A DNA stretch of 10,134 nt, taken from Pseudomonadota bacterium. GTDB lineage: Bacteria > Pseudomonadota > Alphaproteobacteria > Rhizobiales > Rhizobiaceae. The stretch spans positions 1 through 10,134 of the forward strand of contig JAEYXI010000500.1 in assembly GCA_023428515.1 (NCBI GenBank). Reading direction: 5' to 3'. A program made the translations under genes and the position numbers. Under the pieces are notes generated by a model that was given only the letters and a program-made list of their open reading frames with translations, did not search any database and was not told the origin of the DNA. Positions 1,025 through 10,134 of the stretch are shown one piece after another; within the stretch, counting starts at the first letter, position 1; each line of letters opens with the position of its first letter.

Positions 1025-2044
1025 TCAGGCGCGCACGCGCCGCCGTTCGCGCCGGCCTTCGCCGCCTTCGCCCGCGCCGCTCTGGTCGGCCGTCTTGTTG
1101 CGCAGCGGGCCGATGCGCGAAACGATCGTCTCGACCGTCGGGCGCTCCGCCTTCACATGCACGTCCAGCGCCTGGCGCATCGCCGCCAGATGCCCAAACG
1201 ACGTTCCGCAGCAGCCGCCAATGATCTTCGCGCCGCCGTCGACCGCCAGCCTGACATAGTCGGACATCAATTCCGGCGTGCCGGAATAATGGATCTCCGT
1301 GCCGCGGAATTCCGGAATGCCGCAATTGCCCTTGACGATGATCGTCGCATCGGGCTTCGCGGCGCTCATGTCGAGCAGCGAGGAAAGAATGTCGGACGCG
1401 CCGACGCCGCAATTGGCGCCGACCGCGACCGCGTTTTCCGTCAGCCCGTCGGCAACGTGGTGCACGTCCTTCGGCGCCAGCCCCATCATGGAGCGGCCGG
1501 CCGTGTCGAAGGAGAAGGTGTAGGTATAGGGCAGGCCGACCCGGATCGCGGCTTCGGCCGCGGCCTTCGCCTCGTCCGGGGCGGACATCGTCTCGATCCA
1601 GGCGATCTCCGCGCCGCCTTCCTTCAGGCCGGCGATCTGCTCTGCGAAGGCGTCGACCGCCTCGTCATAGGTCATGGCGCCGAGCGGCACGAGCAGTTCG
1701 CCGGTCGGGCCGACCGAGCCCGCGACGATCACCTTGCGGCCTGCCTTGTCGGCCACGCCGCGTGCGATTTCGGCGGCGCGCCTGTTCAACTCATGGACTC
1801 GGTCCTGCGCACTGTGCAGCTTCAGCCGCTGGCGTGTGCCGCCGAAGGAGTTGGTGAGGATGATGTCGGCGCCGGCGTCGACGAAATTCTGGTGCAGCGC
1901 CACGATCTTTTCAGGCGCACTTTCGTTCCAGAGCTCCGGCGCTTCGCCGGATTCCAGCCCCATGTTGAAGAGGTTCGTGCCCGTCGCGCCGTCGGCGAGA
2001 AGGACGCCCTTTTCGGCAAGCAGAGCGTCGATGGGATTGGTCAT
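1025..2044 (-). CDS. bmt: betaine-homocysteine S-methyltransferase
   Basis: Cytosolic zinc enzyme that moves a methyl group from glycine betaine to homocysteine, giving dimethylglycine and methionine. The homocysteine S-methyltransferase barrel covers about residues 8-300 of 339. Seen in order: DGATGTNL (18-25), TNSFGGT (64-70), GSVGPTGELL (109-118), GANCG with Cys212, and GGCCGT with Cys278/Cys279; these three Cys are the family's zinc ligands. It closely resembles the bmt product of Sinorhizobium meliloti, which feeds betaine breakdown through dimethylglycine. A low-complexity basic tail (about 320-339, rich in Gly, Glu and Arg) follows the barrel. The ATG at 2044 follows the start of the common motif NPIDALLAEKGVLLADG; only a GGAAAG run about ten bases upstream resembles a ribosome site. 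Promoter and a methionine-type operator lie at 2081-2109. Some enzymes of this family also accept sulfonium methyl donors (thetins), relevant given the DddP-like gene in this window. An S-methylmethionine-dependent role is a less likely alternative. Confidence 0.92.
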   Translation of the reverse strand: MTNPIDALLAEKGVLLADGATGTNLFNMGLESGEAPELWNESAPEKIVALHQNFVDAGADIILTNSFGGTRQRLKLHSAQDRVHELNRRAAEIARGVADKAGRKVIVAGSVGPTGELLVPLGAMTYDEAVDAFAEQIAGLKEGGAEIAWIETMSAPDEAKAAAEAAIRVGLPYTYTFSFDTAGRSMMGLAPKDVHHVADGLTENAVAVGANCGVGASDILSSLLDMSAAKPDATIIVKGNCGIPEFRGTEIHYSGTPELMSDYVRLAVDGGAKIIGGCCGTSFGHLAAMRQALDVHVKAERPTVETIVSRIGPLRNKTADQSGAGEGGEGRRERRRVRA

Positions 2045-2129: not shown

Positions 2130-2744
2130 TCAGGCGGATCGCTCGATCTCCACATCGATCCGCGTGCAGGCATCGCCATTCGTCGGATGGAAGTCGACGG
2201 AGCACGCGGTGACGACGACAACAAGGTCGCGTTCGGCCCGCAGTGTCACATAGCCGCCGGGCGGATTGATCGACGCCAGCACTTCGATCCGCCCGTCGGG
2301 CTGCGGCGGCGAGTTCTGGAACAGGTCGACCGGATCGGGGACGAAGGGAAGGGCCAACCCTTCGTCCGCGAGCGCCGCCAGCATATTGTCGTGGCAGTTT
2401 GGGTGGCCGGGCAGGCCGAAATGCTCGTAGAGGCCTGGATTGCAGGCGGGATACAGCATGTCGTGCGGACCCGGCGAGCCATCTTCCACGAGCGTCAGCA
2501 GGGGCTGCCCTTTGATGCTGTAGAACTGTTCTCCGACCGCCGGAAACAGCCGTTCGGTGATGTCGCGCGTCTGCGAGGTGCTCAGCCAGTCGAGTTCCGG
2601 CTCGGCGACGATCGCCCAGAGGTCGGCGACCTGCTGGCCCTCCGGGTCGATGATGCGGATAGTATCGCCCTCCGCCACGCGGAAGGCGCGGCCGGACTGC
2701 GGCGGAATGGTCGTGCGCTCGGGCTTCGGCAAGGTCGGCTCCAC
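2130..2744 (-). CDS. DUF1989 (urea carboxylase-associated) family protein
   Basis: Single-domain protein of 204 residues covering the whole DUF1989 fold. Visible family marks are GQQVADLWA (36-44), STSQTRD (55-61), PHDMLYPACNP (93-103), HPNCHDN (114-120) and the end motif ACSVDFHPTNG (180-190). The conserved Cys and His (Cys101, His114, Cys117, His118, Cys181) are likely metal ligands. Relatives sit beside urea carboxylase and take part in guanidine or urea-type nitrogen breakdown, but many stand alone with unknown substrate; nothing of that pathway is visible here, so I give no reaction. The start is GTG at 2744, the farthest upstream start possible because an in-frame stop (TAG) lies five codons before it; no good ribosome site is seen. 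It begins 42 bases after the XRE regulator gene ends and is probably in its transcript, which suggests the regulator senses a compound linked to this enzyme. Confidence 0.85.
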   Translation of the reverse strand: MEPTLPKPERTTIPPQSGRAFRVAEGDTIRIIDPEGQQVADLWAIVAEPELDWLSTSQTRDITERLFPAVGEQFYSIKGQPLLTLVEDGSPGPHDMLYPACNPGLYEHFGLPGHPNCHDNMLAALADEGLALPFVPDPVDLFQNSPPQPDGRIEVLASINPPGGYVTLRAERDLVVVVTACSVDFHPTNGDACTRIDVEIERSA

Positions 2745-2786: not shown

Positions 2787-3644
2787 TCAACCGTCGGCCG
2801 AGCCGGGCAGTTGCGCGGCGAGATTGCGGGCGAACGCCGCCGCTTCATGAGCGTTGACGTCGGCGGCGCGGATCAGGTTGTCGAAATGCCTGGTCAGGGT
2901 GCGGATCGGGTCGGTGGCGTTCAGCACCAGATACATGCCGCCGACATAGATCGCCGCACGATATGGCCCGAAGATCGTATAGGGCACGGAATAGCGCAGC
3001 CTGCCGTCGTAGAGGAACAGCCGGAAGGTCGGGTAGAGGTCGTCGAGCAGCTCAGCCATGTGGCTCAGTTGCGCGCGCCGCTCCTTCTCCGGGAAGCCGC
3101 TCCATACGCCTAGCCCTCGCGCAAATATATCGAGCGTGTGGAGCGGCATGCAGACCTCCATGTCGGTCTCGGGACGCCGGTTGTACTCGATGCGGTACTG
3201 CGTCTCGTCGGCCTGCTGCTCGCGGCTGCGATTGGTGATGTCGGCCTCGTAGTCGATCAGCGCCTCGGTGCGCAGCAGATCGGGGATGCCTGCCGGCACG
3301 TAGCGGATTTTCGTTCCCGCGGCCTCGGCATGCCAGCGCGCCAGCAGCGTCCGGTCGAACGCCCCGGAGCCTTCCTCGATCTCCAGGCTCTCGCGGATCT
3401 CGCCGGTCAGGACTTCGTCCTGGCTGAGACCCAGCAGCCAGTCGAGCGACACCCTGTTTTCGGCGGCGATGTTGAGCAGCGTCTCCGCCCGGGGAAGCCT
3501 CGTCGATGCGCCCGAAAGCAGTTGCGAGAGCGCCGAGCGGTCGATCCCCACGGCCGCGGCGAACTCCGACTGGTTCTGGTCCGAGCGTTGCAGCAGGAGT
3601 TTCAGGCGCTCCCGGAAGACATCTGAAAGTCGGCGCTTGTCCAT
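2787..3644 (-). CDS. XRE-family transcriptional regulator with C-terminal sensor-like domain
   Basis: Residues about 10-70 (of 285) form a Cro/CI-type helix-turn-helix: NQSEFAAAVGIDRSALSQLLSG carries the two DNA-reading helices, followed by LPRAETLLNIAAENRVSLDWLLGLS. The remaining ~200 residues are not a simple tail. IRYVPAGIPDLLRTEALIDYE followed by an alpha/beta region recalls the DUF5753-type domain that follows the helix-turn-helix in actinobacterial XRE proteins, suggesting ligand binding; this likeness is by eye. I place the start at the ATG at 3644 (MDKRRLSDVF) because AGGCGAG lies just upstream and the family begins there. An in-frame ATG at 3713 would add 23 residues (ending RNRIQASD) unlike the family. 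A promoter and an inverted repeat at 3727-3773 suggest self-regulation. The DUF1989 gene follows after 42 bases. Confidence 0.85.
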   Translation of the reverse strand: MDKRRLSDVFRERLKLLLQRSDQNQSEFAAAVGIDRSALSQLLSGASTRLPRAETLLNIAAENRVSLDWLLGLSQDEVLTGEIRESLEIEEGSGAFDRTLLARWHAEAAGTKIRYVPAGIPDLLRTEALIDYEADITNRSREQQADETQYRIEYNRRPETDMEVCMPLHTLDIFARGLGVWSGFPEKERRAQLSHMAELLDDLYPTFRLFLYDGRLRYSVPYTIFGPYRAAIYVGGMYLVLNATDPIRTLTRHFDNLIRAADVNAHEAAAFARNLAAQLPGSADG

Positions 3645-3726
3645 ATCACTCGCCTGGATTCGATTTCTGCTGACGGAAAGGAATGCGCGTTCTGGAGGAA
3701 CTCGAATCCCCATGTGTGTTTACAAT

Positions 3727-3800: not shown

Positions 3801-3820
3801 CCTGACACAATGTTGTCAGG
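3801..3820. promoter_or_regulatory. CCTGACA-N6-TGTCAGG palindrome upstream of the desaturase
   Basis: Perfect 7-base arms around CAATGT; 16 of 20 positions are symmetric. It ends 40 bases before the chosen desaturase start and lies where a weak promoter (TTGTGA at 3783-3788, 17 bases, CACAAT at 3806-3811) would have its -10 box. This fits a dimeric repressor site. The regulator is unknown; the nearby XRE protein or an unlinked TetR/GntR-type protein are options. Confidence 0.45.
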
Positions 3821-3860
3821 AATCGCGAGATTCCGGCGACTGGGGGCAGTGGTCGAGGGC

Positions 3861-4874
3861 ATGCCGAGAAAAAACTGGGGCAAGAGCAGAAAAATCCAGG
3901 CCATCGAATGGCCGACGGTCTTTCTCATCATAGCTTGTTACGCTGCCTGGGTGGGGGCAGCGATCTTTCTCTGGCCATCTTATCCGACAATCGCATTGAT
4001 CGTGCTTGGTGTGCTGCTGGCCATGCAGTCGTCGCTGATGCACGAGGCCGCGCACGGCCACCCGACCCGTAAGGGCTGGCTCAACGAAGCTCTGGTCGGC
4101 TTGCCGATCGGGCTCGTCTATCCCTACCGCCGTTTCAAGGCGCTGCATCTGCGCCACCACGCCGACGAGCGGCTGACCGATCCTTTTGACGATCCGGAAA
4201 GCTATTATCGCGCGCTCTGGCACCACGAAGAGTTGCCCGCGGCGCTGAAGGCCGTGCTGAAGTTCAACAACACGATGATCGGACGCTTCGTCATCGGACC
4301 GCCGCTGGCGACGGTCGGCTTTCTCGCCACCGAGGCCGGGCTGATCGCCGATGGCGATCGGGCCGTGCGCAAGGCGTGGCTGCTGCACGCGATCGGTCTC
4401 GCCATCGTCCTGCCGGTCGTGCAGTTCGGCTTAGGCATCCCGCTGTGGCTCTATGTCCTTGTGCCGGTCTGGCTCGGCCAGTCGATCATCTCGGTGCGCA
4501 CCTTTGCCGAGCACCAGTGGTCGGAGCGGCCGGACGGACGCACCATCATCATCGAGCGCTCGCCGCTTGCCTTCCTGTTCCTCAACAACAATCTGCACCT
4601 CGTGCATCACAAGAGCCCGAACGTCGCCTGGTACAGGCTGCCGAAGCTTTTCCGCGACAAGCGCGAGCAGTGGATCGCCATGAACAACGGTTATGTTTTC
4701 CCGGGCTATTTCGCGCTGCTCAAGGAATATGCCTTCAAGGCGAAGGAGCCGGTGGTGCACCCCGCGCTGCGCCGTGCGCCGGAGCCGGGCCGCGCCTTCC
4801 GTCCGCGCGTCAGGGCGAACAATGTCTCGGGGCTGGGCACCGTGCCGGTCCCCGCCAAGCCGCCGAAGGATTGA
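3861..4874 (+). CDS. membrane fatty acid desaturase-family protein
   Basis: Integral membrane di-iron oxygenase-type protein of 337 residues. The three histidine boxes are complete: HEAAH (61-65, followed by GH), HLRHH (96-100) and HLVHH (246-250), plus the extra His218 in AEHQW common in this class. Hydrophobic segments at about 17-37, 43-60, 143-160, 174-190 and 193-212 fit the usual four-helix membrane core with the boxes facing the cytoplasm. The tail after about 300 is Pro/Arg-rich. The family desaturates or hydroxylates acyl chains; position specificity and even substrate cannot be read. I prefer ATG 3861 (MPRKNWGK) over the in-frame ATG 3810, which falls inside the CCTGACA palindrome and would add 17 atypical residues; neither start has a strong ribosome site. 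The PhnD-like gene follows after 44 bases, likely in the same transcript. Confidence 0.88.
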   Translation: MPRKNWGKSRKIQAIEWPTVFLIIACYAAWVGAAIFLWPSYPTIALIVLGVLLAMQSSLMHEAAHGHPTRKGWLNEALVGLPIGLVYPYRRFKALHLRHHADERLTDPFDDPESYYRALWHHEELPAALKAVLKFNNTMIGRFVIGPPLATVGFLATEAGLIADGDRAVRKAWLLHAIGLAIVLPVVQFGLGIPLWLYVLVPVWLGQSIISVRTFAEHQWSERPDGRTIIIERSPLAFLFLNNNLHLVHHKSPNVAWYRLPKLFRDKREQWIAMNNGYVFPGYFALLKEYAFKAKEPVVHPALRRAPEPGRAFRPRVRANNVSGLGTVPVPAKPPKD

Positions 4875-4918: not shown

Positions 4919-5770
4919 ATGACCTCCATCGCAGCCCTTCCCATGTATGACTGGCCCGAGGCACGCGCCGAGACCGACGCGGAGTGGCAGGGCCTGCGCG
5001 CGCGTCTCGTCGCGGCCGGCATCGACGCGCCGCAAAAGCTCGTGCGTCGCAATGCTGAGCTGCCGGCTGTGCCGGGCGGCATTCTTGACGGCGAGGGCAG
5101 GGCGATCGCGCCAGATCCTGCGGCGCTGCCATCGGACGAACTCGACTTCCCGACTTTGTGGAAGCATCCGGCGCTGCTCTTCGCCCAGACCTGCTGGGGG
5201 CCGATGGAGGAGGGGCTGGAAAAACACGTCACCGTCATTGGCCAGCCAAGTTATGACGGCATCGAGGGCGGGCAGGGCGAGCTCTACTCCAGCCCGATCC
5301 TGATGCGACGCTCTTCACCCTCCCCCTTGCGGGGAGGATCGGCGCACAGCGCCGGGGTGGGGGTGGAGCAGGATAAAGCGCCTGCGGCGGTGCAGGCGCC
5401 TCTGGACGGCCGCGCCATCCTTCCGCTCGGTCTCATGCGCGGCCGGCGTTTCGCCTACAACAGCCTCGATTCCATGTCCGGGATTATTGCGCTGACCCGC
5501 GACCTCGAAGCCGCCGGCGAAAACCTCGCCGTCTTCTCAGAGCGTTTAGAGACCGCGGCGCATCGCGCGTCCATCGTCGCCGTCGCGGAGGGCAGGGCGG
5601 ATGTCTGCGCCGTCGATTGCCGGAGCTGGCACTTGGCGAAGCTGCATGAGCCGCGCGCCGGCGATGTCGAGGTCGTCGGCTGGACCGCACGGCGCAAGGG
5701 CCTGCCCTACATAACCTCTCGCCACACCTCGCCCGATATCGCTGCCCGGCTGAGATCCGCTCTGCGCTGA
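4919..5770 (+). CDS. PhnD/SsuA-like substrate-binding protein with repeat-derived insertion
   Basis: Periplasmic-binding-protein-II fold protein related to the phosphate/phosphonate binders (PhnD family), 283 residues. Typical pieces are IAALPMYDWPEAR (4-16), FAQTCWGPMEEGL (88-100), VTVIGQPSYDG (104-114), FAYNSLDSMSGI (178-189) and the lobe-two motif AHRASIVAVAEGRADVCAVD (214-233). There is no signal peptide or lipobox and no ABC ATPase or permease beside it, so it probably works in the cytosol as a sensor or enzyme rather than in uptake; rhizobia carry many such orphans. Start 4919 fits the family's 'MxxxASLPMYD' opening. Oddity: residues about 132-160 (SSPSPLRGG...) are encoded by a palindromic repeat placed in frame, in the loop between ILMRR and LPLGLMRGRRFAYN; the protein is about 30 residues longer than I would expect. 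The desaturase gene precedes it by 44 bases. The ligand is unknown. Confidence 0.82.
   Translation: MTSIAALPMYDWPEARAETDAEWQGLRARLVAAGIDAPQKLVRRNAELPAVPGGILDGEGRAIAPDPAALPSDELDFPTLWKHPALLFAQTCWGPMEEGLEKHVTVIGQPSYDGIEGGQGELYSSPILMRRSSPSPLRGGSAHSAGVGVEQDKAPAAVQAPLDGRAILPLGLMRGRRFAYNSLDSMSGIIALTRDLEAAGENLAVFSERLETAAHRASIVAVAEGRADVCAVDCRSWHLAKLHEPRAGDVEVVGWTARRKGLPYITSRHTSPDIAARLRSALR
5312..5370 (+). repeat. rhizobial-type palindromic repeat inside a coding sequence
   Basis: This stretch holds CCTCCCC-CTTGC-GGGGAGG (arms 5319-5325 and 5331-5337) followed by CGGCGC-ACA-GCGCCG (arms 5340-5345 and 5349-5354) and a GGGGTGGGGGTGG tail able to pair with the CACCCTCCCCC start. That order (CCTCCCC hairpin, GGCGC hairpin, GGGGTGGGG) is the signature of a short palindromic element spread widely between genes in Rhizobiales and related groups. 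Here it lies inside the PhnD-like gene and keeps the frame open. Edges are approximate; no target duplication is obvious. Confidence 0.7.
5378..5399 (+). repeat. perfect 8-bp inverted repeat just after the palindromic element
   Basis: GCGCCTGC and GCAGGCGC are separated by six bases (GGCGGT). It encodes part of APAAVQAP in the PhnD-like protein. It may be a third arm of the inserted element or chance in GC-rich coding DNA. With the two hairpins before it, about 80 bases of the message can fold almost continuously. Confidence 0.5.
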
Positions 5771-6023: not shown

Positions 6024-7340
6024 TCAGAGCAGTCGTGCATCGAGCGGATAGCTTGACAGCAGATCGTTGCCCGTTTCCGTGATCAGCACCTGCTCCTCGA
6101 TCTTGACGCCCTCGCGCCCGCCGAGCCGGCCGATATAGCTTTCCACGCAGAGCACCATGCCCGGCTCGAGCACGCCGTCCGGCGTGTCCTCCGTCCAGTC
6201 GGCTGCATGCGGCAGCGTCGGATATTCGTCCGCAAGGCCGACGCCATGATAGAGCACGCCATAGCGCGCCGGAAAACAATCCGGCGGTGGCACAGCCGAG
6301 CGCTCGACCAACTCACGGAAACCCACGCCGGGCCGCATAAGCTCGGTGTTGTAGGCGATCTGCTCGGCCGCCATGCGGAAGAGGTCTCGCTGCTCGTTCG
6401 ACGCTTCGCCGTCGCCGCACAGCCAGGTTCGCGACAGGTCGGCGCAGAAGCCGTAAGGGCCGATGAGGTCGGTGTCGAAGGCAACGAGGTCGCCTGCCTC
6501 GATCTTTCGCGACGAGCATTCCTGGAACCAGGGATTGGTGCGCGGTCCCGACGACAATAGCCGCGTCTCGATCCATTCGCCGCCGCGCGCGATGTTGGCG
6601 CGGTGCAGCTCTGCCCACAACTCGTTCTCGCTGATGCCAGGCACCAGCGCTGTCTCCATCTCGCCCATGGCCGCCTCGCAGGCGACGATGGCGCGGCGCA
6701 TTGCGAGAATCTCGTCAGGCGACTTGATCAGCCGCGCGCTCTCCATCACCGCCTCGCCATTGCGGACGGTGACGCCGAGCCGTGCGAGTTCCGTCACGCC
6801 CTCCGGATCGAGGTGGTCGACCGCGATGCGGCTGTTGCCGCCGCCGTGCTCGCGCACAAGATCGGCGATGCCCGCCGCCCAGCGCGCGACGCGCCGGTCC
6901 GACAAATCCCCGCCGTAAAGATACATCCACGACACCGCCGGCCTGACCTCGTCGACCACGCCCGAATGATCGGAGAGGTGCTCGCAGGAGAAATAGTCGA
7001 ACAGCACGACCGGCCCGTCGGTCGCCACGAAACAGTGGCGGGTCGGGTTGTGCGCGACCCACAGCTGCATATTGGTCGAGTCCGTCGCGTAGCGGATGTT
7101 CACGGGGTCGTAGAGCAGCACGCCGGCATAGTCGCGACGCTTCAGCTCGGCGCGGATCCGCTCCAGCCGGTATTTCCGCATCGCCGGAAGGTCGGGAGCG
7201 GCGACACCCGCCACGGCCCACTCGCGCTCCGCCGTCTCGCCATAGCCCAGCACATGGCTGTTCAGCGCCGCCGCCTTCTCCCGCGCCTGCTGGCGCAATG
7301 TCGCCTCGATATCGATCCCGGCGCCCGGCTCGAAGGGCAT
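6024..7340 (-). CDS. dddP: DddP-type DMSP lyase homologue (M24 metallopeptidase fold)
   Basis: Pita-bread-fold protein of 438 residues, close to DddP (about 445), which cleaves dimethylsulfoniopropionate to dimethyl sulfide and acrylate with a two-metal centre. The creatinase-like N-terminal domain carries NIRYATDSTNMQLW (81-94). The C-terminal domain has RGGEWIETRLL and SGPRTNPWFQEC (252-275), then ligands Asp289, Asp291, Asp301, His365, Glu400 and Glu415. The gaps (2, 10, 64, 35, 15) equal those I recall for DddP Asp295, Asp297, Asp307, His371, Glu406, Glu421; Tyr360 and Asp371 match its Tyr366 and catalytic Asp377. Ordinary M24 peptidases have DxG..., not DTD, at the first ligand. Start ATG 7340 has no clear ribosome site; a TTG at 7373 overlapping the NYN stop is an alternative. 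It lies 29 bases after the NYN gene. DMSP as the true substrate is inferred; a related M24 hydrolase (as in ectoine breakdown) is the alternative. Confidence 0.8.
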   Translation of the reverse strand: MPFEPGAGIDIEATLRQQAREKAAALNSHVLGYGETAEREWAVAGVAAPDLPAMRKYRLERIRAELKRRDYAGVLLYDPVNIRYATDSTNMQLWVAHNPTRHCFVATDGPVVLFDYFSCEHLSDHSGVVDEVRPAVSWMYLYGGDLSDRRVARWAAGIADLVREHGGGNSRIAVDHLDPEGVTELARLGVTVRNGEAVMESARLIKSPDEILAMRRAIVACEAAMGEMETALVPGISENELWAELHRANIARGGEWIETRLLSSGPRTNPWFQECSSRKIEAGDLVAFDTDLIGPYGFCADLSRTWLCGDGEASNEQRDLFRMAAEQIAYNTELMRPGVGFRELVERSAVPPPDCFPARYGVLYHGVGLADEYPTLPHAADWTEDTPDGVLEPGMVLCVESYIGRLGGREGVKIEEQVLITETGNDLLSSYPLDARLL

Positions 7341-7369
7341 GATCTTGCGGTGACGACCGAATGTCGACG

Positions 7370-8116
7370 TCAAGCGGGCCTGCTCTTCCTGCTCTTCGGG
7401 GCGGCTGGCTTGACACGAATGCGCACGGCCTTGCCTTCCTTCTGCTCGACGTCGAAGGCGCCCGTCTTGGTCACCAGGTCGATCAGCTTGCGGGAGCCGT
7501 AGTTGCGGGGATCGAAGTCCGACGCCAGGTTCGCGAGCTGCGTGCCCACCGCGCCGAGCGGAACCCACCCGTCGTCCGTTTCCATCTCCGAGATGATGCG
7601 CTTGATGATCGGCGTAGCCGCGCTCGGCGGCTGCAGGGTCCTCTTCTGCGGACCCGCATCGCCGGCTGCTGCCGGCAACAGGTTCTCCGTATAGACGAAG
7701 CGCCGGCAGGCCTGTCGAAAGCTCTCGGGTGTTTTCTGTTCGCCGAAACCGAAAACGTCGAGCCCCTGTTCGCGAATGCGCGACGCCAGCCTGGTGAAAT
7801 CGCTGTCCGACGAGACGAGACAAAACCCTTCGAAGCGCCCGCTGTGGAGAAGGTCCATCGCATCGATCACCAGCGTGATGTCGGAGGCGTTCTTGCCTGC
7901 GGTATAGGCGAATTGCTGCTGGGGAACGATCGCGTGCTTGGCCAGCACGTCCGCCCAGGCCTTCGATCGGGTTCCGGAAAAATCGCCATAGATGCGGCGA
8001 ACGCTCGCCTCGCCGATCTTGGCGATTTCCTCGAACAGACCGTCGGCGATCTTCGCCGATGCATTATCGGCATCGATCAGGACGGCCAGTCGGGGCGAGC
8101 GTGGTTCGTTTGGCAT
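7370..8116 (-). CDS. NYN-domain ribonuclease-like protein with OST-HTH/LOTUS domain
   Basis: Two-domain soluble protein of 248 residues. The NYN (PIN-like, LabA/DUF88) domain fills about residues 9-150, with the acidic metal-binding positions in place: LIDADN (Asp15, Asp17), YGDFS (Asp44), NASDITLVIDAMD (Asp78, Asp84) and VSSDSDF (Asp103, Asp105). A Pro/Ala linker leads to an OST-HTH/LOTUS winged helix at about 167-232 (IIKRIISEMETDDGWVPLG, NYGSRKLIDLV), which binds RNA in its relatives, and a Lys/Arg-rich tail. The pair NYN plus LOTUS suggests an RNA-guided or RNA-binding nuclease; the RNA target is unknown. It sits 33 bases after the dehydrogenase gene and 29 bases before the dddP-like gene, so it is likely cotranscribed with both. 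The ATG at 8116 lacks an obvious ribosome site. Confidence 0.88.
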   Translation of the reverse strand: MPNEPRSPRLAVLIDADNASAKIADGLFEEIAKIGEASVRRIYGDFSGTRSKAWADVLAKHAIVPQQQFAYTAGKNASDITLVIDAMDLLHSGRFEGFCLVSSDSDFTRLASRIREQGLDVFGFGEQKTPESFRQACRRFVYTENLLPAAAGDAGPQKRTLQPPSAATPIIKRIISEMETDDGWVPLGAVGTQLANLASDFDPRNYGSRKLIDLVTKTGAFDVEQKEGKAVRIRVKPAAPKSRKSRPA

Positions 8117-8149: not shown

Positions 8150-10134
8150 CTATGACCGCATCTTCTCGCCCGCGGGATCGAAGGGCGGCGCTACGTTGAT
8201 GCGGGCGGGGCGGCGGTGCCCGAGGATCTCGATCTCGAACAGGCCCTCGCTCTCGTCCTCGGCAAGTGCCGCCGGCACATAGCCCTGCGCCATCGACTTC
8301 TGCACGTAATGCGCATAGCCGCCCGAGGTCACCCAGCCGACCACGCGCCATTCGCCGTCGGTGATGCCGCGCACGGCGGAAGCGCCGGTCGCTGCGGTCG
8401 AGCCGCGCGCTTCCTTGCCCGTGCCGTCGAAGCGCGGGGCGCCGTAGCCGTGCGGCTTCTCGACCGTGCCGTAATCCTTACCGTTGACCTTCGCCCAGAT
8501 CGGCTCGTCGCCCATCACGTCGGCGTCGGTTGCATCGACGATCAGCGAGACGCGGCGCAGCTTGCCGCCTTCCGCCTTTTCCTTGGCTGCAGCCTCGCGG
8601 CCGATGAAGTCGTTCTTCTCGAGACGGATGAAGCGATCCATTGCTCCCTCGAACCGACCGTAGATCGGCCGCAACTCGCGGAACCAGGTCGGGAAATTCT
8701 TCTCGAGCCGCATGGAGAGCAGAGCGCGCATGCCGAAATCGACGATGCCGAATTCCTCGCCTGCCTCCTTGATCGCCTTGTAGACCAGCCGCTGGTAGGC
8801 CGGCTCCATCCAGATCTCGTAACCCAGGTCGCCGGTATAGGTGACGCGGTTCACCATTGCCGGCGCGCCGCCAACCGCCATCTCGCGGAAATCCATGAAC
8901 TTGAACGCGGCGGTCGACACGTCGACATCCACCAGCTTCTGCAGCAGCGCCTGCGCCTTCGGTCCGGCGATCGAGAGTCCGACCAGCGTCTGGTCGAAGC
9001 GATGGATACGAACTGAGCCATCTTTCGGCAGATGCTTCTCGAACCAGCGCATGTGGTATTTCTGCGCCGCCGACGAGCCCCAGATCATGAAGCGGTCTTC
9101 GCCGGCATGCGCAATGGTGAAGTCGCCGATAAGCTTGCCGAACTCGTTGAGCATAGGGGTCAGCACGATGCGGCCGATCTTCGGCATGCGGTTGCTCATC
9201 AACCGATTCAGGAAATCCTCTGAACCCGCGCCGCTGACTTCATATTTCGCGAAGTTGGCGATCTCGGTGACGCCGACGCTCTCGCGGGTCGCCCTGACTT
9301 CGTTGCCGACATGCTCGAAATCGTTGGAGCGGTGGAACGACACCTTGTCCTTCGGCTCGGTCCCCTCAGGCGCGAACCAGAGCGGCGTCTCCAGCCCCCA
9401 GCTGTCGCCCATCACGGCGTTCTGCGCGACCATCGTGTCGTAGAGCGGCGTCGTCTGCGCCGGACGCGCCGCCGGCAGTTCCTCGTTGGGGAAGCGGATC
9501 GAGAAGCGCCGCGAATAGTTTTCGCGCACCTTGGCGTTGGTATAACGCAGGCTCGCCCACTCGCCCCAGCGCGCCACGTCCATGCCCCAGACGTCAAAGC
9601 CCGGATCGCCATTGACCATCCAGTTCGACAGCGCGAGGCCAACGCCGCCGCCCTGCGAAAAACCAGCCATCACCGCGCAGGCGCACCAGAAATTCGTCAG
9701 TCCCTGCACCGGCCCGACCAGCGGGTTTCCGTCAGGCGCGAAGGTGAAGGGGCCGTTGATGATCTGTTTTATCCCCGCCTTCTCGATCCCGGGGAAATGC
9801 TTGAAGCCGATCTCCAGTGACGGCGCGATGCGGTCGATGTCGGGCTGCAATAGCTCATGGCCGAAATCCCACGGCGTATTCACCGGCGACCACGGCTTGC
9901 ACGCTTTCTCGTATGTGCCGAGCAGGATGCCGTTGCGCTCCTGGCGGCTGTAGATCTCGCCCTTGAAGTCGAGCACGCCGACCATCTCGCGCCCGGTCTC
10001 CCGGTTGAAGGCTTCCACTTCGGGCATCGGCTCGGTCAGCAGGTACATGTGCTCCATGGCGAGCAGCGGCAGTTCCAAGCCGACCATCCGGCCGACCTCG
10101 CGTGCCCACAACCCTCCGCAGTTCACCACGTGCT
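8150..10134 (-). CDS. GcvT-family FAD-dependent dehydrogenase (dimethylglycine/sarcosine type), 5' partial
   Basis: The C-terminal ~660 residues of a flavoenzyme that oxidatively demethylates N-methylated glycines and passes the methylene group to tetrahydrofolate. In order: end of the DAO domain (HVVNCGGLWAREVG at the edge; FTFAPDGNPLVGPV, VMAGFSQGGGVG), a linking FAO_M segment (WGMDVARWGEW), the GcvT folate domain (FAKYEVSGAGSEDFLNRL, YTGDLGYEIWMEP, GMRALLSMRLEKNFPTW) and the C-terminal barrel (VVGWVTSGGYAH, QGYVPAAL). The Rossmann GxGxxG and the flavin-binding head lie outside the window, so the frame's first GTG (10129) is not the start. About 45 residues (bases about 8380-8495, including EKPHGYGAPRF) lengthen the C-terminal barrel compared with plain GcvT proteins. 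The substrate fits dimethylglycine, the product of Bmt in this window, but sarcosine or another methylated amine is possible. It is the first visible gene of the transcript leading to the NYN and dddP-like genes. Confidence 0.88.
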   Translation of the reverse strand, partial: HVVNCGGLWAREVGRMVGLELPLLAMEHMYLLTEPMPEVEAFNRETGREMVGVLDFKGEIYSRQERNGILLGTYEKACKPWSPVNTPWDFGHELLQPDIDRIAPSLEIGFKHFPGIEKAGIKQIINGPFTFAPDGNPLVGPVQGLTNFWCACAVMAGFSQGGGVGLALSNWMVNGDPGFDVWGMDVARWGEWASLRYTNAKVRENYSRRFSIRFPNEELPAARPAQTTPLYDTMVAQNAVMGDSWGLETPLWFAPEGTEPKDKVSFHRSNDFEHVGNEVRATRESVGVTEIANFAKYEVSGAGSEDFLNRLMSNRMPKIGRIVLTPMLNEFGKLIGDFTIAHAGEDRFMIWGSSAAQKYHMRWFEKHLPKDGSVRIHRFDQTLVGLSIAGPKAQALLQKLVDVDVSTAAFKFMDFREMAVGGAPAMVNRVTYTGDLGYEIWMEPAYQRLVYKAIKEAGEEFGIVDFGMRALLSMRLEKNFPTWFRELRPIYGRFEGAMDRFIRLEKNDFIGREAAAKEKAEGGKLRRVSLIVDATDADVMGDEPIWAKVNGKDYGTVEKPHGYGAPRFDGTGKEARGSTAATGASAVRGITDGEWRVVGWVTSGGYAHYVQKSMAQGYVPAALAEDESEGLFEIEILGHRRPARINVAPPFDPAGEKMRS

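Follow-up and report, generated by a model that had tools for sequence, protein, structure and literature searches.

A DddP-like gene beside betaine-pathway genes in a Mesorhizobium-type genome: next to, but outside, the DddP clade

The DddP-like gene and its active-site residues

Positions 1 to 10,134 of contig JAEYXI010000500.1 (assembly GCA_023428515.1, Rhizobiaceae), a stretch of 10,134 nucleotides called the window here, carry a gene for an M24-fold enzyme that resembles DddP, a lyase of dimethylsulfoniopropionate (DMSP). A sequence-only reading of this DNA had described the gene as a DddP homologue in a non-roseobacter setting, next to betaine-pathway genes, and had left two options: a real DMSP lyase or a DddP-like enzyme for another onium compound. 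Our analysis confirmed the setting, with a non-roseobacter, Mesorhizobium-type host, and the betaine-pathway neighbours were borne out by the genes of the window and by related loci. The results also showed that the protein resembles DddP in its predicted fold and active-site residues, yet is not a DddP member by curated model score or by clade.

The minus-strand open reading frame at 6024-7340 encodes 438 amino acids with Creatinase_N and Peptidase_M24 domains. The start codon is probably the TTG at 7373 rather than the ATG at 7340, because this TTG shares the letters TTGA with the stop of the upstream NYN gene, and because the longer reading places MTSTFGRHRKI before MPF and so restores an N-terminus of the "FGRHRKIMPF" type that recurs among relatives. 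Residue numbers rise by 11 under the TTG start, and the score against the NCBIfam DddP model, NF043017, is identical for both readings.

In the 438-residue numbering, D289, D291, D301, H365, E400 and E415 align with D295, D297, D307, H371, E406 and E421 of RlDddP (4RZY), and Y360 and D371 align with its catalytic Y366 and D377. The alignment thus upholds the earlier assignment of all eight residues, which also coincide exactly with the ligands and proposed catalytic residues of RdDddP given in the available text of PMC4108388. The protein is 43.5% identical to RlDddP and 42.1% identical to RdDddP (4B28). A phmmer search against solved proteins gave 372 bits for RlDddP, 354 for RdDddP and 61 or less for prolidases, a likeness to DddP far above chance. 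The predicted structure has the two-domain DddP fold and is much closer to DddP than to any prolidase; the AlphaFold2 model behind this comparison was built from 36 diverse sequences, an earlier one from 13 close sequences having been poor (predicted local distance difference test score, pLDDT, 61.2). Matches to other M24 families (ectoine hydrolase DoeA/EutD, creatinase and prolidase) were only 17-26% identical in the structural comparison, creatinase itself 17-20%. The protein also scored 51.6 bits against the ectoine hydrolase model NF038259, which has a cut-off of 575, and fell far below the cut-off of the prolidase models. Thus phmmer, the curated models and the structural model agree with the earlier view of a DddP homologue far from Xaa-Pro peptidases and ectoine hydrolase. 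The NMQLW motif of DddP and its N-terminal appendix with the RKIxP motif are also present, while Gly282 of DddP is replaced by Ser, as in most wider relatives. A sulfur-binding Trp20, attributed to DddP, was not used; the 4RZY stretch, which begins at residue 8, has no Trp there. The part of a review that we consulted states that a tryptophan and a tyrosine bind sulfur in DddP and gives no positions.

Model scores, phylogeny and wider relatives

The protein scored 478.5 bits against NF043017, below the cut-off of 600, and five other members of its clade scored 476-527 bits. Among 199 genomes from the family of Mesorhizobium amorphae, 61 matched this model (E<=1e-100): 14 exceeded the cut-off and 39 had a best match of 459-527 bits, not counting G717, whose 517-bit match is a partial DddP-clade gene. 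No genome of this family sample held both a match above 600 bits and one of 459-527 bits. The tree includes 18 of the 39 mid-score genomes, every one of them in the clade of the window protein. In a class-level sample 53 of 289 genomes matched at E<=1e-60, six of them over the cut-off, and in a phylum-level sample 34 of 398 matched at E<=1e-100, 17 of them over it.

A quick tree was computed from 109 rows. For a careful one, with 91 rows, we removed seven that were long or belonged to the outgroup and eleven close ones of Mesorhizobium type. Both were built without the fungal DddPs and DddP1/2 of Oceanimonas doudoroffii. The two trees concur that the clade of the window protein adjoins the clade holding RlDddP and RdDddP and does not lie within it. 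The former, referred to below as the query clade, comprises 33 Rhizobiaceae/Mesorhizobium rows (22 after thinning; support 100/100). The DddP clade comprises 47 rows (100/99), among them RlDddP, RdDddP and an Oceanisphaera gene annotated dddP by NCBI. These two clades and the rows L101/L102 form one group (100/98), in which L101/L102 are placed weakly on the DddP side (88/62). In approximately unbiased (AU) tests, a grouping of the query clade with 25 core DddPs alone was rejected (p=0.003), as was a grouping with an eight-row wider clade that includes Rieske-linked genes (p=0.0055); a direct sister relationship to all DddPs was not rejected (p=0.44). The groups were chosen after the tree had been seen, and these p-values are guides. 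The phylogeny proposed earlier as a check places the protein in one group with DddP, but beside the DddP clade and not inside it. One record 85% identical to the window protein (P0072) is named "Dimethlysulfonioproprionate lyase DddP [Mycolicibacterium aubagnense]"; its actinobacterial origin looks like a mislabelled or contaminated record.

The clades also differ in an N-terminal stretch, RKIDPxRR...DGxPNDNDRVEIGPT, which we defined from DddP-clade loci. The window protein keeps only RKIxP of it and otherwise reads FGRHRKIMPF...LGYGxxAExEW. Only seven positions are fixed differently between the two clades (each at 90% or more). One of these is Ser287, against Gly282 in DddP, which comes after the conserved NPWFQEC stretch.

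All 33 query-clade rows have the eight residues complete, as do 46 of 47 DddP-clade rows and 21 of 25 rows of wider DddP-like proteins. The six metal ligands, including the extra Asp (Asp297 in RlDddP), occur in all 25 wider rows, and equivalents of the catalytic Tyr366 and Asp377 in 21. The wider proteins, from Rhizobium, Caballeronia, Pseudomonas and others, are annotated "Xaa-Pro peptidase family protein" where annotated; they lie outside the joint group of the two clades, and the sequences inspected have no RKIxP appendix. Some of them sit in betaine-type neighbourhoods. With all eight residues present, L118 adjoins a GbcA-like Rieske oxygenase, a 4-hydroxyproline epimerase and a glycine-betaine ABC transporter, L121 a GbcB-like reductase, and L117 a BCCT transporter and a weaker GbcA match, all of these Gbc matches being under the cut-offs of their models. 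Because the set is complete in 21 of 25 wider rows, some in betaine clusters, it is not diagnostic of DMSP lyase, and the earlier inference from these residues to such a lyase did not hold. The claim that the extra Asp of the Asp-Thr-Asp pair separates DddP from ordinary peptidases held against three other M24 proteins of M. amorphae, which lack the pair. It failed as a mark of DMSP lyases: this Asp sets the whole DddP-like superfamily apart from the three proteins checked, and not DMSP lyases from their relatives.

Several further observations concern the wider relatives. In L120 (Sinorhizobium meliloti pSymA) and L082 (an M. amorphae copy) the place of Asp377 is taken by Gly; the proposed catalytic base is thus not universal in the superfamily. 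A wider DddP-like gene was found on 69 plasmid records, of which 68 are Rhizobium. L219, like L118 a Rhizobium plasmid locus, has the gene beside a Rieske-type oxygenase, a 4-hydroxyproline epimerase and a glycine-betaine ABC transporter. A search of the literature on M24 proteins in hydroxyproline-betaine clusters found nothing relevant among the papers listed. At L119 (4610-5915), a desaturase-type protein, 25% identical to that of the window, and a ferredoxin immediately precede the DddP-like gene; desaturase-type proteins may substitute there for the Rieske system.

Gene neighbourhood

The genes of the window are listed in Table 1. Of 151 related loci, the best 80 were used to count conservation, and 74 of these carry Mesorhizobium in their titles; identity had to be at least 60% unless stated otherwise.

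Table 1. Genes of the window, with their occurrence among the 80 related loci
Feature	Coordinates	Strand	Remarks
Betaine-homocysteine S-methyltransferase (BMT)	1025..2044	-	555 bits, cut-off 338; 74/80 loci
DUF1989 protein	2130..2744	-	19/80 loci
XRE-type regulator	2787..3713	-	76/80 loci
Fatty-acid-desaturase-type protein, probably an oxygenase	3810..4874	+	77/80 loci
PhnD-like substrate-binding protein	4919..5770	+	convergent with DddP-like gene; 30/80 loci
DddP-like M24-fold enzyme	6024..7373	-	449 aa from TTG at 7373 (probable start); 438 aa if ATG at 7340
NYN + OST-HTH/LOTUS protein	7370..8116	-	TGA overlaps TTG of DddP-like gene; 3/80 loci
FAD/GcvT fusion, dimethylglycine/sarcosine dehydrogenase type	8150..10132	-	5' part beyond window; 79/80 loci

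The set of FAD/GcvT, DddP-like gene, PhnD-like and desaturase-like genes, XRE regulator and BMT recurs among these loci. Under looser clustering PhnD was found in 70 of 80 loci and an MttB-type gene in 71 of 80; both counts rest on crude gene calling, in which genes were missed or mis-called in some loci (none, for example, was called for L179). The MttB-family methyltransferase lies outside the window and was confirmed by Pfam in three loci. A PadR gene occurred in six of 80. The gap between the FAD/GcvT and DddP-like genes is often about 60 bp, and unrelated insertions occupy it in other loci. In the window the NYN/LOTUS gene sits there, in place of the GDSL lipase, SDR, PMT-like or other gene seen elsewhere; it is probably a passenger, since only three related loci have it. 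A 1399-residue frame at L183 that appeared to fuse FAD/GcvT with the M24 protein was rejected, its first part being an out-of-frame read-through. The DUF1989 protein matches the N-terminal part of trimethylamine N-oxide demethylase and urea-amidolyase-associated proteins, all under cut-off. Within that demethylase, Tdm, this protein and the GcvT part hit separate regions, scoring 113 and 120 bits (cut-off 1100).

Fourteen more diverse loci of the query clade, some cut by contig ends, were examined with no identity limit. BMT was present in 13, the desaturase in 11, FAD/GcvT in 11 (one a mere 25% match to GcvT), PhnD in 10 and XRE in nine. At L001 and L007 the MttB-type gene, FAD/GcvT and the DddP-like gene are kept, and the rest are absent within 8-kb flanks. 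In the class-level sample, five of 52 genomes had an MttB gene no more than 2 kb from a DddP-like gene, giving at least nine pairs; random placement would yield 0.93 genomes and 0.95 pairs (Poisson p for genomes 0.003). We found no paper on MttB together with dimethylglycine dehydrogenase in rhizobia.

Substrate class and the question of DMSP

We see an even chance that the window protein is a dinuclear-metal enzyme of a Rhizobiaceae subfamily sister to DddP, working in a cluster for betaine (quaternary-ammonium) catabolism, with a quaternary-ammonium acid rather than DMSP as its likeliest natural substrate. Its partners in this cluster would be the MttB-family methyltransferase, the dimethylglycine-dehydrogenase-like FAD/GcvT enzyme and betaine-homocysteine methyltransferase. 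If the mechanism follows that of DddP, the substrate carboxylate would be bound by a metal pair on Asp300, Asp302, Asp312, His376, Glu411 and Glu426 (449-residue numbering). Asp382 would act as the base that removes the alpha proton, Tyr371 would lie next to the onium group, and beta-elimination would release the onium moiety. To our knowledge, beta-elimination at a C-N bond by a dinuclear M24-fold enzyme would be a new activity. Cleavage of DMSP may persist as a side activity. Between the two options offered by the sequence-only reading, the evidence favours an enzyme that resembles DddP and acts on another onium compound over a real DMSP lyase: the score is below the cut-off, the protein lies outside the DddP clade, and the eight residues are non-diagnostic.

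A genuine physiological DMSP lyase, converting DMSP from plants, algae or sediment to dimethyl sulfide and acrylate, with the acrylate passing through AcuI-family enzymes, seems unlikely to us. Among solved proteins DddPs come closest, and they share the known active-site residues and the predicted fold of the window protein, but the sub-cut-off score, the position outside the DddP clade, the lack of the DG-x-x-ND-x-DRVEIGPT part of its N-terminal stretch and the betaine gene context argue against this alternative. The gene for DMSP demethylase, dmdA, points the same way. Over a set of 46 genomes picked non-randomly from the tree, with close pairs such as G646/G648 in the DddP set, dmdA exceeded its cut-off in one of 23 genomes with the query clade against 14 of 23 with clade-type DddP. 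In the accessible part of PMC10686828, DddPs are reported to cleave dimethylsulfoxonium propionate (DMSOP) as well, and the host used, Rhizobium leguminosarum J391, is one "which cannot catabolize DMSOP", although R. leguminosarum plasmids, considered at the species level, commonly carry wider DddP-like genes. A number of observations nevertheless weigh against a quaternary-ammonium substrate and for DMSP. The known active-site residues do not differ from those of DddP and give no reason to dismiss DMSP as the real substrate. The available text of PMC4108388 cites DddP activity in Aspergillus and Fusarium, and the proven Fusarium enzyme is just 32% identical to RdDddP, less than the 42.1% of the window protein (by different alignment methods); distance alone is therefore no ground for excluding DMSP activity. 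The query-clade genome G760 has dmdA over the cut-off, and G808, G731 and G701 have dmdA-like matches of 363-375 bits (cut-off 410). AcuI-family acrylyl-CoA reductases exceeded their cut-off in 46 of 46 genomes, both groups alike, and AcuI was set aside as a non-discriminating marker of acrylate release. The neighbourhood, too, is less telling than its counts suggest: its conservation within Mesorhizobium is partly shared descent, and the sister rows L101/L102 lack every other window gene in their vicinity. FAD/GcvT is found in two of 14 DddP-clade loci and so fails to separate the two clades; BMT is found in none of these 14, and among 16 wider loci FAD/GcvT occurs in four and BMT in one. Finally, on a plasmid of the Antarctic Pseudomonas sp. 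MPC6 (L117, L218) a wider DddP-like gene with its BCCT transporter has nearby an 838-residue CoA transferase, another BCCT, an iron-type alcohol dehydrogenase and a methylmalonate-semialdehyde dehydrogenase. We take this set to resemble dddD-T-B-C; it is a point for a DMSP link of some wider relatives.

A creatinase- or ectoine-hydrolase-like metal hydrolase, cutting a larger precursor to release N-methylated glycine or a similar compound and feeding the adjoining dimethylglycine/sarcosine-type enzyme, is conceivable but doubtful. Every query-clade row keeps the Asp pair of DddP along with its Tyr and Asp, and the scores and identities to ectoine hydrolase and creatinase given above are low. 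An ordinary Xaa-Pro peptidase is very improbable, although database names suggest one: among the 120 homologues listed, Joint Genome Institute (JGI) names are Xaa-Pro dipeptidase or aminopeptidase, and NCBI names are mostly M24 family metallopeptidase, peptidase M24 or Xaa-Pro peptidase family protein. Against it stand the 61 bits of the best prolidase beside 372 for RlDddP, the Asp-Thr-Asp pair missing from the three M. amorphae paralogues, and the report, in the available part of PMC5395565, that no activity of RlDddP itself on valine-proline could be measured.

If the window protein does act on a quaternary-ammonium acid, its substrate also bears on the origin of DddP. We tentatively suggest, while thinking it rather unlikely, that the DddP-like superfamily is at root one of onium lyases of betaine catabolism, releasing for example trimethylamine from beta-alanine betaine or a related acid, that the query clade keeps this ancestral function, and that marine DddP is a derived branch that acquired DMSP.

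DddP is a much-counted marker of DMSP cleavage, and the query clade is common in Mesorhizobium. Residue checks and closest-ratified-enzyme rules would accept this clade, because it has the same known active-site residues despite its betaine cluster; those residues are no proof that the window protein produces dimethyl sulfide. "DddP in Mesorhizobium" is already in print: the accessible text of PMC7039863 reports dddP in 37.8% of sediment bacteria, naming Mesorhizobium, from sequence alone and by such a closest-enzyme rule, a count that also speaks for a DMSP lyase. PMC10989825 shows activity for a DddP 55% identical to DddP2 of Oceanimonas. We found no activity for a Mesorhizobium DddP among the open-licence papers listed. 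The query clade would pass that rule, and if it was counted there the census would be inflated. Should the superfamily indeed descend from onium lyases, many "dddP" counts from soil and sediment would not be DMSP lyases.
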